Assembly (NCBI GenBank): GCA_028689195.1 | Contig: JAQTWR010000013.1 | Location: forward strand, 1 to 17,068 | Direction of reading: 5' to 3' | DNA length: 17,068 nt | Source of the DNA: Anaerolineales bacterium | GTDB lineage: Bacteria > Chloroflexota > Anaerolineae > Anaerolineales > Villigracilaceae | Shown: piece by piece, positions 3,237 to 15,175 of the stretch | Layout: each line of letters begins with the position of its first letter | Position numbering within the stretch: the stretch's first letter is position 1 | Translations under genes and position numbers: made by a program | The notes under the pieces: model-generated | What the model was told of the DNA's origin: nothing | The model's database searches: none | The model's input: only the letters and a program-made list of their open reading frames with translations

Positions 3237-3302
3237 TTGAGCGTAATCGTAATAACGTAGCGACAAACCTATGGCTCAATGGATAGAAATATTTTGTGAT
3301 TA

Positions 3303-3345
3303 AAGCGGACAACCCCATTTTGGGGCTGTCCGCTTATATTTTCTT
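3303..3345 (+). terminator. Terminator-like hairpin in the gdhA leader (possible attenuator)
   Basis: AAGCGGACA (3303-3311) pairs with TGTCCGCTT (3327-3335), and inside it CCCC (3313-3316) pairs with GGGG (3322-3325) across one A/C mismatch and an ATTTT loop. The T-rich stretch ATATTTTCTT follows. It lies 33 bases upstream of ATG 3368 and ends before the ribosome site at 3356-3360. It is either the terminator of upstream transcription or an attenuator for gdhA. Confidence 0.65.
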
Positions 3346-3367
3346 GAAACTCTTTAGGAGAACAGAC

Positions 3368-4666
3368 ATGACAGGACAACTTAATGCTTTTGAAATGGCG
3401 CAGAAACAATTTGACCATGTTGCAAAACAGCTCAAATTGGATTCTGGCGTCGCAGAGGTCTTACGCTGGCCCATGCGCGAATATTCCTTCCGCATTCCGA
3501 TTCGCATGGATGACGGGAATCTTCGCGTTTTTCAGGGATTCCGCGTACAACATAACGACGCGCGCGGACCCAACAAGGGCGGTATTCGCTTCCACCCCGC
3601 TGAGACGATGGACACCGTGCGCGCGCTCGCCACATGGATGACCTGGAAATGCGCCGTCGCGGATATTCCGCTGGGCGGCGGAAAGGGCGGCATTATTGTC
3701 GATCCGTCCACGCTTTCAGTCAACGAAAAAGAAGAAGTTTGCCGCGGCTGGGTACGCGCGATGTGGAAGAATATCGGACCGCGCAACGATGTGCCCGCTC
3801 CCGATGTGGGTACGACCCCTCAAATGATGGGCTGGATGATGGACGAATATTCGCGTCTGGTCGGTCAATATACGCCGGGCGTGTTCACCGGCAAGCCTCT
3901 CGGCGGCGGCGGTTCGCTCGGGCGCACCGAAGCGACCGGTTACGGCGTGATCTACACCGTGCGCGAAGCGATGAAACACCTCAATATTGATTCCAAAAAA
4001 TCCGCCGCCGCGATACAGGGCTTCGGCAACGTTTCGCAATATGCGGCTGTCGGCTTTGTGGAAATGCTCGGCGGCGAAGTCGCTTGCGTTTCGTGCTACG
4101 ACCGCCACGATAAAAAATCCTATACCTACAGCAAGAAAGGCGGCGTTGACCCGCGCTTCCTGCTCACCATTGTGGATGAATACGGCACGATTGACAAGAA
4201 GAAGGCTCAAGATGCGGGCTATGTCGTCGAAGACGGCGACATCTGGATCACCAAGGAAGCCAATGTGTTGATCCCCGCCGCGATTGAAGGTCAGGTTAAC
4301 GCGGATACGGTTTCCAAGATGTCCAAGGGAATCAAAATTGTGGCGGAAGGCGCGAACGGTCCCTGCACGCCGGAAGCGGACGAATACTTCAAGAAGAACA
4401 ACATCTTCAATATTCCCGACTTCCTCTGCAACGCGGGCGGCGTGACCACCTCGTACTTCGAGCAGGTTCAGAACGATATGAACTTCTACTGGTCAAAGGA
4501 AGAAGTTTTGGAAAGACTCGACCAGAAGATGACCTCCGCCTTCCACGGCGTTCTCGACCGCAGCGAAAAGGAAAAGGTCTACATGCGCGACGCGGCTTAC
4601 ATGGTTGCGATTGACCGCGTAGTGAAAGCCATGGATTTGCGCGGCTGGCTGACGGGTAATTCATAA
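3368..4666 (+). CDS. gdhA: Glutamate dehydrogenase (Glu/Leu/Phe/Val dehydrogenase family)
   Basis: The enzyme interconverts glutamate with 2-oxoglutarate and ammonia. It has 432 residues, normal for the hexameric class. In order: GPNKGGIRFHP (67-77), MTWKCAVADIPLGGGKGG (91-108) with the two substrate lysines K94 and K106, and PAPDVGT (143-149) with catalytic D146. QGFGNVSQYAA (217-227) is the dinucleotide loop, and the acidic residue of VSCYD (241-245) at the end of the next strand favours NAD over NADP. That pattern suits a catabolic role, but is inference. ATG 3368 is chosen over an in-frame GTG at 3296 because AGGAG (3356-3360) is 7 bases upstream and the family N-terminus fits. The leader holds a promoter and a terminator-like hairpin, and a strong terminator follows at 4696-4735. 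Confidence 0.96.
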   Translation: MTGQLNAFEMAQKQFDHVAKQLKLDSGVAEVLRWPMREYSFRIPIRMDDGNLRVFQGFRVQHNDARGPNKGGIRFHPAETMDTVRALATWMTWKCAVADIPLGGGKGGIIVDPSTLSVNEKEEVCRGWVRAMWKNIGPRNDVPAPDVGTTPQMMGWMMDEYSRLVGQYTPGVFTGKPLGGGGSLGRTEATGYGVIYTVREAMKHLNIDSKKSAAAIQGFGNVSQYAAVGFVEMLGGEVACVSCYDRHDKKSYTYSKKGGVDPRFLLTIVDEYGTIDKKKAQDAGYVVEDGDIWITKEANVLIPAAIEGQVNADTVSKMSKGIKIVAEGANGPCTPEADEYFKKNNIFNIPDFLCNAGGVTTSYFEQVQNDMNFYWSKEEVLERLDQKMTSAFHGVLDRSEKEKVYMRDAAYMVAIDRVVKAMDLRGWLTGNS

Positions 4667-9806: not shown

Positions 9807-11432
9807 GTGCAAAACCTGCTTGCGCTCATTGACCGCGCCTTCCTCTCTGCGGCAAATCTTTACGTCTCCCGCGCCGTTATCGGCGGCGCGCAAACGTGGA
9901 TTGACAACCTCATCGCCATCGTCATCAATCTGCTCATTGCCGCGTATTTTTGGAACGTCACGCAAAGCGCGTGGAGGGCGCTTCCCGAACAAGAAAACTT
10001 CGCGGAAATTCGCCGTCTTTACCGCTTTATCTGGATGTTATACGGCTTGATTATGATTATCTTCGGCGCGCAGCAGGCGCTAAGTTACGCCTTCGCTTTA
10101 TCCTCCACCGATGTGCTTGGCGCAATGGGGCGCGAGGTTGTGGTCAACGCCATCGCGCTGCTCATCATCGGCGCGCCGATCTGGTACTACTCGTGGCGCG
10201 TCAGCCAGAACGCGCTGTCAGATTCCGATGAACAAGAATCTTTGCTCCGCCTTGCGCTTCTTTACAAACTCTCGTTGATTGGCGTGGTCGTAACGCTGAC
10301 CGCGAGCGGAAACCTGCTCTATCTAATTCTCATGCGCGCCTTTGGCGACGGAAAAACGCTCGCCGAATTCATTCAAAGTATCGGCGCGCCCATTTCTATC
10401 GGCGTCCCGTTTGCCGTCGTTTGGGCGTATTACGGCGATTGGCTGCGCCTGCAATTCGCGTTCGACGAAAACTCCATCCGCCGCGCGGGCAAGCGCAGGT
10501 TGTATTTTTACATTCTCTCGCTTATCGGACTCGCCGCCTCGTTCTTCGCCGTCGCCTCTTTGCTTTCGCTGGTGATTGATTTGCTGACCTCGAAGAGTTA
10601 TCTCAGTTCAGGCGGATTCAGCGAACCGCTTTCGCGCGCTTTAGCCTTCCTTGCGGCTGGTCTCCCGCTTTGGTTATTGACCTGGCGTCCGACTCAATTC
10701 CGCGCCCTCGAAGACGGCGCGCTGGGCGACCATGCGCGGCGTTCGGTGATTCGCAAAATATATTTGTACCTCGTGTTATTCGCGGCGGTCATCGGCGGGA
10801 TGGCTTCTGCGGGCGGGCTGATCTTCACGCTCATCAACGCCGCGCTCGGCGGCGAGACAAGTAATTTCGCCAACTCGATTCTCAACAATTTGCAGGCGCT
10901 GATTTTATTTATCGTCCTGCTGTTCTATCACCTTTCCGCGCTGCGAACGGACGGCGCGCTGCGCGCCGATGCGTTGGAAGCCAAGCAAAAAGGATTTAGC
11001 CTCACGGTATTCGATCACGACGGAAAATTCGGCGAAAGAATGAAGGTCGCTTTCGCAAAGCGCGCGCCGAATTTGACGTTGAATATCGTCAGCGTAAAAG
11101 ACGAAATTCCCGCCGAACTCAAAGCCGACGCGATTCTGTTTTCGAGTATTCTATTGACGGATGCGCCGAAAAATATCGAGGCGTGGATTCGCTCGTTTAA
11201 TGGGAATAAATTGGCGGTCGCCGAAGACGCGGCGGGCGTTTTCTGGGCGGGTAACGATCCGCAGGCAGTAGACTCTGCGCGGGCGTTGGCTGAAGGCGAG
11301 CAGATCCGCCCGCAATCGGCTAAAGGAACTTCCACATGGACGTACATCGCCTATGTGTTCGCGGCGTTGTTCGCGCTGCAAGTATTGTTTATGTTGATAA
11401 CTCTCGGCGTTTCGCTCGTAACTGGTTTTTGA
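9807..11432 (+). CDS. DUF5671 membrane protein, main fragment after the premature stop
   Basis: The frame is open from 9741; the first usable start codon in frame is GTG 9807, with no ribosome site, giving 541 residues. Two further full repeat units are visible: RRLYRFIWMLYG (69-80) to GAPIWYYSWRVSQ (122-134), and RRLYFYILSLIG (230-241) to GLPLWLLTWRPTQ (285-297), each followed by a second pair of membrane segments. About a dozen membrane segments are expected in all. Residues 395-508 form a soluble alpha/beta domain (SLTVFDHDGKFGERMKVAFA at 398-417), and a last membrane helix lies at about 511-536. The role of DUF5671 proteins is unknown to me. If translated at all, this would depend on reinitiation or readthrough. 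Confidence 0.65.
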   Translation: MQNLLALIDRAFLSAANLYVSRAVIGGAQTWIDNLIAIVINLLIAAYFWNVTQSAWRALPEQENFAEIRRLYRFIWMLYGLIMIIFGAQQALSYAFALSSTDVLGAMGREVVVNAIALLIIGAPIWYYSWRVSQNALSDSDEQESLLRLALLYKLSLIGVVVTLTASGNLLYLILMRAFGDGKTLAEFIQSIGAPISIGVPFAVVWAYYGDWLRLQFAFDENSIRRAGKRRLYFYILSLIGLAASFFAVASLLSLVIDLLTSKSYLSSGGFSEPLSRALAFLAAGLPLWLLTWRPTQFRALEDGALGDHARRSVIRKIYLYLVLFAAVIGGMASAGGLIFTLINAALGGETSNFANSILNNLQALILFIVLLFYHLSALRTDGALRADALEAKQKGFSLTVFDHDGKFGERMKVAFAKRAPNLTLNIVSVKDEIPAELKADAILFSSILLTDAPKNIEAWIRSFNGNKLAVAEDAAGVFWAGNDPQAVDSARALAEGEQIRPQSAKGTSTWTYIAYVFAALFALQVLFMLITLGVSLVTGF

Positions 11433-11483: not shown

Positions 11484-12617
11484 ATGAAAGTTACTGTTCT
11501 TCAGGAAAATCTTGCGCGCGGTTTGGGAATCGTTTCACGCGCCGTTTCGCCGCGCAGTACGCTTCCCGTTCTATCTAACATTTTGATCGCGAGCGACGAA
11601 GGTCGCTTGCGCCTTTCAGCCACAAACCTTGAGTTGGGAATCACTTGTTGGATTGCGGCGCGGATCGACGAGGAAGGCTCGACGACCGTTCCCGCGCGCA
11701 CATTTTCAGATCTGGTGAACACGCTGCCCGGCGATCAGGTTCAATTGACGTTGGATGTGAAAACGCAAAGCCTGCATGTGAAAGGCGGCACGTCGAATAA
11801 CGACATCAAGTGCATTGACGCGCAAGAGTTCCCGCCCCTGCCCGTGCCTGAAATGGAAGGCGCGATTCAATTGAACGTCGGCGATTTCAAAGAGATGATT
11901 CAGCAGGTTGCGTTTGCCGCTTCTACAGACGAATCCCGCCCGGTGTTGATGGGCGTTTTGATGAACGTTGAAAAAGATAAAGTCACGCTGGCGGCTGCGG
12001 ACGGTTTCCGTCTTTCGGTGCGCAAGGCGCTGCTTTCGCAGGCGGCGGCGCAGCCTTTGAATGTGGTCATCCCTGCGCGGGCGTTGAACGAATTGGCGCG
12101 TGTGGCGAGCGATCCTGAAGAGCCGATTTATATGGTCGCGCCGAAAAATCGCGGACAGGTTCTGTTCCGCGTGAAGGACGTGGAAGTGGTTTCGCAGTTG
12201 ATTGAGGGAACTTTCCCCGATTATCAGCAAATCATTCCGCGCAGTTATAAATCGCGCACGCTGGTTTCCACCGCGTCCCTGCTCAAGGCGTGCAAGCAGG
12301 CTGAGATTTTCGCGCGTGAAGGCTCGAATGTGGCGCGTTTCGACATCAAGCAAGCCAACGGCGAAATGCAGCCGAGCGAAGTTGAAATTTCCGCGACCTC
12401 TGAAGAGACGGGTAAGAACGAAACGATTGTCGAAGCCACAGTAGACGGCGGCAGCGTGTTGATTGCGTTCAACGTGAAGTTTTTGCGCGAGGCGTTGGAG
12501 GTTATCAAGACCCCGAACGTGGCGCTGGAAACATCCGCCGCGAACGCGCCCGGCGTCATCAAACCTGTCGGCGACGAAGATTTCCTGCATGTGATTATGC
12601 CAATGCACCTTGGATGA
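11484..12617 (+). CDS. dnaN: DNA polymerase III beta subunit (sliding clamp)
   Basis: The clamp encircles DNA as a dimer and holds the replicative polymerase on its template. The 377-residue length is normal for three clamp domains of about 125 residues each. Recognisable landmarks are MKVTVLQENLARGLGIVSRA at the start, VSPRSTLPVLSNILI (22-36), then FAASTDESRPVLMGVLM (in domain 2), AADGFRLSV, and EGTFPDYQQIIP (in domain 3). The C-terminus FLHVIMPMHLG carries the PMxL ending that lines the partner-binding groove. ATG 11484 has GAGGG at 11472-11476, 7 bases upstream. It has its own promoter and terminator. It is not beside dnaA, recF or gyrB in this window; upstream is a membrane protein and downstream a PPDK_N protein, so the usual origin operon is not present here. 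Confidence 0.97.
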   Translation: MKVTVLQENLARGLGIVSRAVSPRSTLPVLSNILIASDEGRLRLSATNLELGITCWIAARIDEEGSTTVPARTFSDLVNTLPGDQVQLTLDVKTQSLHVKGGTSNNDIKCIDAQEFPPLPVPEMEGAIQLNVGDFKEMIQQVAFAASTDESRPVLMGVLMNVEKDKVTLAAADGFRLSVRKALLSQAAAQPLNVVIPARALNELARVASDPEEPIYMVAPKNRGQVLFRVKDVEVVSQLIEGTFPDYQQIIPRSYKSRTLVSTASLLKACKQAEIFAREGSNVARFDIKQANGEMQPSEVEISATSEETGKNETIVEATVDGGSVLIAFNVKFLREALEVIKTPNVALETSAANAPGVIKPVGDEDFLHVIMPMHLG

Positions 12618-12802: not shown

Positions 12803-15175
12803 ATGCTGCCGAAAATATCAATTGACAATGTGCTGCGGATTTTTCTCGCGCTCAATCAGTATCCCATTTTAAGCAGGCGCATCCGTTCGCGGATGCGGCG
12901 CGAACTATATGTGCGCGGAATTATCACGAAGGAAAATCTCGACGGTGAAACGCGCAAAAAGGGAATCGAATCGCAGGTGCGCGAGGGCGTGCATAATCCA
13001 TTGGAGGAGGAACAGGCGGACGTATGGGAAACGCGCCTGCTGCGTATCCGCGATTCGTTGACGGATTTTTACTACGCCCATAATATGCCCTACGAGGATT
13101 TCGAAAATCTCGTCCTTCAGGTGTTGACCGAGCGCGGCAGCCCCGATACGGATTTTGTCTGGTTCAACCCGGAACTCGCCCCGCAGGAAATGATCTTCGA
13201 GCAGGCTGAGATGATCGAATCCATGCCGCCGGAGGAACGCAAAAAATACGAAGCGCGTTTGAAAGAATTGAAAGTGGTGTTGATTCGCACGATGGTCAGC
13301 GACCAGTTGAAATATATCAAGATCGCGCGAAAATGGCTGACGGTGGGAGATTTAAAAGAAATTCGCGCGCGTAAAATCGGCAGCGGAAAAGTGGGCGGTA
13401 AAGCCGCGGGAATGTTGCTCGCCATGCGCGTCATCAAAGAGACCGCCCCCGCCGAAATTGCCGCGCGGTTTAGAATTCCCGTTTCTTATTATCTCGGCTC
13501 GGACGTGTTCTACAACTTCCTAAATCATAACGACATGATGCATTGGAACGGGCAGAAATACAAATCCGACGACGAGATTCGCGCGGACTATCCTACCCTG
13601 CGCCAAGAATTTATCGGCGGGACTTTTCCCGTAGAAATCACCGAAAGCCTCGAGCGCATTTTGCAGGAAGCCGGCGGCAGACCGCTGATTGTGCGCTCCT
13701 CCAGTTTGTTGGAAGATAATTTCGGCACTTCGTTTGCGGGAAAATACGACAGCGTCTTTTTGCCTAATCAGGGAAGTTCTGACGAAAAAATTTCCGCGTT
13801 GACCAGCGCCATCGCCGCGATTTACGCGAGCGTTTTCAATCCCGACGCGCTGACGTACCGTCACCTTAAAGACCTTGCGGATTACGACGAGCGCATCGGC
13901 ATTCTCATCCAATTTGTGGAAGGCGAAAAAACGGGACGATATTATTTTCCGCACGCGGCGGGAGTCGCGTTCAGCCGCAACTTGTATCGCTGGTCGCCGC
14001 AGATCAAACAGGAAGATGGATTCCTGCGCCTCGTGTTTGGACTCGGCACGCGCGCGGTGGATATGGTTGCCGACGATTATCCGCGCCTCGTCGCGCTCAG
14101 CCATCCGCGATTACATTCCACCTCCGATGTTCGCGCCATCAAGCGATATTCCCAACAAAGCGTGGATGTGATTGACCTTGAAGAAAATTCGTTCGCGACG
14201 ATTCCCGTCCGCGAAGCGCTCGACGCGGATTATCCCGCGCTTCGTTTTATCGCCCAACTTCAAGAGGATGGCGACCTCAAACCGATCCGCTCGCGCCTCG
14301 CGTCTCCTGAAAAAATGGTCGTCACTTTCGACGGTTTGTTGTCGCGCACGCCCTTTGCAGAAAGTATGCGAACCGCGCTAAAACTGCTGGAGACCCATTA
14401 CAAATCTCCTGTGGATACCGAGTTCGCTTTGGAGGTCGTCAATCCCGACGAGCGTCCCGAAGTTCAAATTACGCTTTTGCAGTGCCGCCCGCAAAGTCAC
14501 ATGAAGGACGGCGCCGAGATCGAAATCCCGGAAGATTTGGACGATGAAGATATTATCTTCTCCACGCATACGATGGTGCCGCAAGGCGCGGTGGAAAATA
14601 TTCAGTACGTTCTCTTTGTTCCCGCGGAGGGATATTTCAAACTTCAATCGCAAAATGAACGGGCGCAATTGGAGCGCGCGATTGGTCAACTCAACGCCGC
14701 GTTAAAAGACCAAAAATTTATCGCCGTAGGACCCGGGCGCTGGGGAACTTCTACGCCCGATCTTGGCGTGCATGTGGCGTACAGCGATATTTATAATTCC
14801 CGCGCTTTGGTCGAACTGGCTGGCGAGGAAATTGGCGCGTCGCCCGAACCCTCCTTCGGCACGCATTTTTTTCAAGATTTGATGGAAGCAAATATCTATC
14901 CGCTGGGCGTGTTTCTCGACGACGACAAAACCATTTTCAAACGCGACTTTTTCTACAAGACTCCCAATCGTCTCGCTGATTTTATTTCGGTGGATAATCC
15001 GCGCGCGCTGAACGCCTTGCGATTAATCGCCGTCCGCGATTATCGTCCCAACCGCCATTTGGATTTAATCATGGACGCGCAGCAAAGTTACGCCGTCGCT
15101 TTTCTTGTCGGCGAGGGGAAGCCTGCCGCGGCGGAGGATGCGCCAATAAGCGCGCCGCCATTTGGCTTGGAGTAA
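12803..15175 (+). CDS. PPDK_N (ATP-grasp) protein with uncharacterised C-terminal domain, lacking the phosphohistidine domain
   Basis: This 790-residue protein contains a complete pyruvate-phosphate-dikinase N-terminal (ATP-grasp) domain. GSGKVGGKAAGM (193-204) is the glycine-rich loop with K200; VRSSSLLEDNFGTSFAGKYD (297-316) holds R298 and E304; ITLLQCRP (556-563) is the closing motif. Residues 1-185 are a helical N-terminal region with acidic stretches. After 563 there is no TSHA-type histidine domain and no PEP/pyruvate barrel. Residues 564-790 form another domain with GPGRWG (643-648), LGVHVAYSDI (654-663) and SFGTHFFQDL (684-693). It therefore cannot perform the full PEP synthase or PPDK cycle; it may phosphorylate another target. 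ATG 12803 has AGGA at 12788-12791. It is monocistronic, with a terminator 5 bases after its stop. Confidence 0.85.
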   Translation: MLPKISIDNVLRIFLALNQYPILSRRIRSRMRRELYVRGIITKENLDGETRKKGIESQVREGVHNPLEEEQADVWETRLLRIRDSLTDFYYAHNMPYEDFENLVLQVLTERGSPDTDFVWFNPELAPQEMIFEQAEMIESMPPEERKKYEARLKELKVVLIRTMVSDQLKYIKIARKWLTVGDLKEIRARKIGSGKVGGKAAGMLLAMRVIKETAPAEIAARFRIPVSYYLGSDVFYNFLNHNDMMHWNGQKYKSDDEIRADYPTLRQEFIGGTFPVEITESLERILQEAGGRPLIVRSSSLLEDNFGTSFAGKYDSVFLPNQGSSDEKISALTSAIAAIYASVFNPDALTYRHLKDLADYDERIGILIQFVEGEKTGRYYFPHAAGVAFSRNLYRWSPQIKQEDGFLRLVFGLGTRAVDMVADDYPRLVALSHPRLHSTSDVRAIKRYSQQSVDVIDLEENSFATIPVREALDADYPALRFIAQLQEDGDLKPIRSRLASPEKMVVTFDGLLSRTPFAESMRTALKLLETHYKSPVDTEFALEVVNPDERPEVQITLLQCRPQSHMKDGAEIEIPEDLDDEDIIFSTHTMVPQGAVENIQYVLFVPAEGYFKLQSQNERAQLERAIGQLNAALKDQKFIAVGPGRWGTSTPDLGVHVAYSDIYNSRALVELAGEEIGASPEPSFGTHFFQDLMEANIYPLGVFLDDDKTIFKRDFFYKTPNRLADFISVDNPRALNALRLIAVRDYRPNRHLDLIMDAQQSYAVAFLVGEGKPAAAEDAPISAPPFGLE

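Follow-up and report, generated by a model that had tools for sequence, protein, structure and literature searches.

The closest described case that we found is VadK (Rv1127c), which is described as a histidine kinase derived from pyruvate phosphate dikinase (PPDK) that combines an ATP-binding domain with a PPDK kinase domain and has a catalytic His422 (PMC13400623). VadK autophosphorylates at His422, which the H422A mutation abolishes, and it reportedly interacts with methylcitrate-cycle enzymes, has its gene near theirs and tunes that cycle (PMC13400623). Here we describe a 790-residue PPDK_N protein encoded at 12803..15175 of a Chloroflexota contig of 17,068 bases, analyzed whole and called the window below (draft genome of 2.85 Mb, 422 contigs, 82% complete; coordinates are on the forward strand unless marked). 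A first-pass annotation had described it as a dikinase-like kinase without the phosphohistidine domain, ending in an uncharacterized tail. On balance we lean towards a dikinase-type phosphotransfer kinase in which H688, on a diverged swivel tail, is phosphorylated and serves an external acceptor, with the glutamate dehydrogenase (GDH) system as target.

Pfam recognized the ATP-grasp domain (residues about 190-570, 13370..14512) as PPDK_N (PF01326) at residues 196-579, with an E-value of 2.6e-52 and 178.6 bits against a cut-off of 27; the scan otherwise gave only noise, leaving the tail and the N-terminal domain without a match. NCBIfam matches to phosphoenolpyruvate (PEP) synthases and other dikinase-type proteins fell far under cut-off, and a PDB sequence search returned five weak matches, all within the ATP-grasp region and with targets named PEP synthase. 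The key residues listed in the first-pass annotation (K200, R298, E304, Q560 and R562) were all present. In a 102-row alignment of relatives K200, R298, E304, E540 and R562 are invariant (102/102), Q560 is glutamine in 100/102 rows, and D538 is aspartate in 94, glutamate in 7 and alanine in 1. The protein belongs to PPDK_N both by its Pfam score and by the catalytic K, R, D/E and Q-x-R residues, whose roles we take to be those of the corresponding residues in PPDK. Short local alignments with the same genome's own PPDK span GGK and DxEF, Q-x-R being matched by eye, and the mutants K22A and R337A are named in PDB titles among the structural matches.

The tail domain (residues 575-771, 14525..15115) carries the three motifs already noticed there: GPGRWG at residues 643-648 (14729..14746), LGVHVAYSDI at 654-663 and SFGTHFF at 684-690, within which GTHFF (686-690, 14858..14872) holds H688 (14864-14866), numbered as before. 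The suggested alignment test found R646 in 102/102 rows and W647 in 100/102. H688 is kept in 99 of 101 rows extending that far; L097 is interrupted by a contig end. H688 opens a predicted helix and is the best acceptor candidate, in line with its earlier nomination. The two exceptions are paralogues: one in L185 (6733-9036, reverse strand), which reads GTQFY and has lost GPGRWG too, and one member of a tandem pair in L188 (7335-9698, reverse strand), which reads GTDFF. The GTDFF copy and its GTHFF partner are perhaps a kinase/pseudokinase pair.

The predicted structure of the tail is closest to the phosphoryl-carrier domain of PPDK, in the matching chain position and with a moderate Z-score; 8/8 of the top structural rows belong to one domain family at the expected chain position. 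On this model the tail is probably a heavily diverged form of the phosphate-carrying histidine (swivel) domain. The claim that the phosphohistidine domain is lacking is then right about the missing motif but probably wrong about the domain, and the idea that something else had replaced it conflicts with the nearest fold. Predicted structure thus linked the C-terminal region with a characterized domain, whereas sequence did not. None of 61 tails matched PF00391 (PEP-utilizers) at E <= 10, a search in which HMMER filters drop most matches above ~0.1, and no TSHA-type motif occurs in the tails of these 61 members. Profile alignment with hhalign against 30 PEP-utilizers domains, repeated with 101 broader tails, gave P of 0.58 and 0.63, not significant; Foldseek with the tail alone gave a best E of 0.086 and was not used as evidence. 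Because the aligner placed the tail motifs differently at low stringency, we claim no residue equivalence from sequence. As annotated, the window protein lacks both a TSHA motif and a PEP/pyruvate barrel: the chain stops at residue 790, right after the tail, and Pfam gave no match of that kind.

In the phosphotransfer reading, the ATP-grasp domain would bind ATP and phosphorylate H688, probably with release of AMP as in the PPDK family, and the swivel domain would ferry the phosphate from H688 to a partner. Since the PEP/pyruvate barrel is missing, the phosphoryl group would pass to an external acceptor. Gene neighborhood and the analogy with VadK suggest GDH or a GDH regulator as the target system, in which case its role would be to tune nitrogen assimilation, rather as VadK reportedly does with the methylcitrate cycle. 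Occurring beside GDH in several lineages, this PPDK-like kinase may therefore be a protein kinase controlling nitrogen metabolism.

Among 61 related genomes, the window's own included, 44 carry a match (43 strong, and one, in G045 with E 6.6e-4, to the ATP-grasp domain only); relatives that align over almost the whole length are 43-82% identical. In species genomes a scan picked up at least 587 stretches, of which at least 520 are relatives; the best 80 were retained, all with Chloroflexota titles, other phyla being possible among the remainder, and the nearest named relatives among these 80 are Anaerolineae-type assemblies. Of 301 Chloroflexota genomes searched with the tail profile, 24 matched, including one from outside the class. 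The first-pass mention of similar tails in other phyla was borne out in Bacteroidota, where a 984-aa form shares 29% identity across ATP-grasp and tail (526 columns); the tail, for which there is no family model, is conserved in both Chloroflexota and Bacteroidota.

Short forms consist of a helical N-terminus, the ATP-grasp domain and the tail. The all-helical domain of the window protein (residues 1-180, 12803..13342) is missing from a 580-aa relative. Long forms (984-1016 aa) have a receiver-like N-terminus before the same two domains: Response_reg matched 2 of 3 long forms scanned (E 2.2e-6 and 9.9e-7, both below the curated cut-off), and Pfam did not find it in the window's 790-aa protein. 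Inspected by eye, the Pfam-matched receiver has no clear phosphoacceptor Asp, and a second region (VEDS ... ISD ... DK), unreported by Pfam, seems a more complete receiver. A 1062-aa paralogue (L026, 11431-14619, reverse strand) has an extra C-terminal nucleotidyltransferase domain (PF01909), and residues 337-411 of the L186 long form match DUF5752, between the receiver-like and ATP-grasp regions. Because ATP-grasp plus tail is the constant core, an acceptor outside the protein is probable, and the remaining domains appear to serve as inputs.

A Glu/Leu/Phe/Val dehydrogenase gene (GDH, 3296..4666) lies 8.1 kb upstream of the PPDK_N gene on the same strand and is the only PF00208 match found in the window's own, 82% complete genome. 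GDH occurs within 8 kb in 14/80 related loci, every time upstream on the same strand, with contigs that end early scored as lacking it. It lies <=1 kb from the match in 10 of 102 rows (L109, L118, L122, L124, two of the three copies in L026, L126, L127, L186, L187), and on the tree this GDH-adjacent state must have changed 7 times or more. The 580-aa copy in L026 begins 18 bp past a GDH gene, both Chloroflexota long forms adjoin GDH (one divergent, one co-directional), and gdhA is the divergent next-door gene in 3 of 5 Bacteroidota-type loci (L126, L127, L202); no gdhA was seen within the stretch covered in L128 and L201.

The 24 genomes of the tail-profile search each have one or two PF00208 matches, and GDH is on the same contig as the family member at <=30 kb in 15 (G000, G021, G026, G037, G048, G104, G130, G138, G184, G224, G240, G256, G264, G303, G330), farther off on the same contig in one (G232) and on other contigs in 8; as the genomes are related, these proximity counts are not independent events. 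In a control on 8 shared genomes (G000, G012, G021, G026, G033, G037, G048, G049), 1 of 21 PF00391 matches lay <=30 kb from GDH, compared with 6 of 8 for the PPDK_N-plus-tail family. Other PPDK_N or PEP-utilizers loci had GDH, dnaN or a deoxynucleoside kinase gene in 0/32 cases, a weak control since its flanks reached 1.5 kb around the domain match, mostly the same gene, and the eight-genome control is relied on in its place. The L026 stretch (G049:C20:8000-27500) holds three paralogues and two GDH genes, near genes named by eye as GltD-like, FAD/NAD-binding (NfnAB-like), sensor kinase and response regulator. The Parabacteroides record of L126 (NZ_OY725790.1), labeled 'plasmid', also carries valine--tRNA ligase, ruvC and two GDH genes and is probably a chromosome fragment.

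Several points temper the reading as a phosphotransfer kinase acting on GDH. Half of the top rows in the full-model structure search end at the ATP-grasp domain, and the 0/32 control is weak, both of which slightly lower our confidence. The GDH-target step has its least support in the window's own clade, where the immediate neighbor is dnaN, not GDH. The protein could instead be a small-molecule dikinase like rifampin phosphotransferase, in which a metabolite bound at the helical N-terminal domain, or elsewhere on the surface, is phosphorylated from H688. The full model does match rifampin phosphotransferase structures best, and P21, M31, Q58, E61, G62, W75 and R78 in the N-terminus of the short form are invariant (60/60), but the N-terminal part varies from helical (short form) to receiver-like (long form) to none (580-aa form), and PPDK_N is all that Pfam shows in the window protein, so we consider this unlikely.

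An unrelated tail domain, as the first-pass annotation had it, combined with a different acceptor or ligase-type chemistry, seems quite unlikely given that all eight top structural rows agree on one domain family in the expected place. More improbable still is that the protein serves as an ATP-binding sensor or scaffold that has ceased to transfer phosphate, its motifs holding the fold or binding a ligand: the two paralogues that retain the architecture without the histidine would suit such a role, but the invariance of the five ATP-grasp residues and near-invariance of H688 exceed what binding alone needs. Extending the phosphotransfer reading, we offer as a tentative and rather improbable possibility that undescribed, widespread ATP-grasp phosphohistidine signalling kinases control GDH in both Chloroflexota and Bacteroidota, with phosphate moving between receiver and swivel histidine in the long forms, as a phosphorelay on a dikinase scaffold.

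Directly upstream of the PPDK_N gene is dnaN (DNA polymerase III beta, 11484..12617), a same-strand arrangement found at <=1.4 kb in 54/80 related loci of the window's clade; the distant L185 paralogue adjoins dnaN too. In 12/80 loci (L066, L068, L069, L071, L073, L076, L079, L086, L087, L093, L094, L106) a gene identified by eye as a deoxynucleoside kinase lies <=80 bp downstream. In Bacillus subtilis the TSH-containing PEPut domain of PykA reportedly affects replication initiation (PMC10427196), so by analogy a replication link of the window's PPDK_N protein is conceivable. A 541-aa protein at 9807-11432 has two DUF5671 stretches, and an upstream protein group occupies a similar place in 15/80 related loci, likened to it by position alone.

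Viral origin was rejected: 0/46 candidate stretches were confirmed in viral contigs. The phage collection gave matches in 4 records, two of which cover only a Listeria rph-like ATP-grasp region; the other two (L201, MT835667.1; L202, MT835811.1) are faecal scaffolds, unverified and labeled 'Bacteriophage sp.', that carry the Bacteroidota form, and L202 also contains the start of gdhA and so is probably bacterial DNA.

The open full-text literature, a search with most subscription journals outside it, yielded no paper on the GPGRWG motif, none on DUF5752 and none tying GDH to an ATP-grasp phosphohistidine regulator. Among the matches listed, titles and abstract starts held no description of the PPDK_N-plus-tail family, and these searches gave no functional description of the Bacteroidota relatives. 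The sole annotated relative seen, from Parabacteroides (L126), is named just 'PEP/pyruvate-binding domain-containing protein'. If the phosphotransfer reading is true, a phosphohistidine domain missed by sequence profiles is present in two phyla, gut Bacteroidota included, protein phosphotransfer of the VadK type is commoner than supposed, and GDH has an unrecognized regulator.

Set beside known systems, the window protein resembles PPDK and PEP synthase in having a PPDK_N ATP-grasp domain with catalytic residues followed by a predicted swivel-like domain, and differs from them in lacking the TSHA motif and the PEP/pyruvate barrel. Rifampin phosphotransferase and HpeI (9goj; PMC12167813) are among its closest solved ATP-grasp folds; both are described as small-molecule enzymes, whereas the window protein has no recognized substrate domain. 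The proteins of Parabacteroides (L126) and its Bacteroidota kin are homologous across ATP-grasp and tail and retain GTHFF and GPGRWG, but have a receiver-like N-terminus. Like VadK as described, the window protein joins an ATP-grasp domain to a predicted histidine domain without a PEP/pyruvate domain and is encoded near genes of a possible target; unlike VadK, its histidine domain has diverged past sequence detection and an extra N-terminal domain is present.
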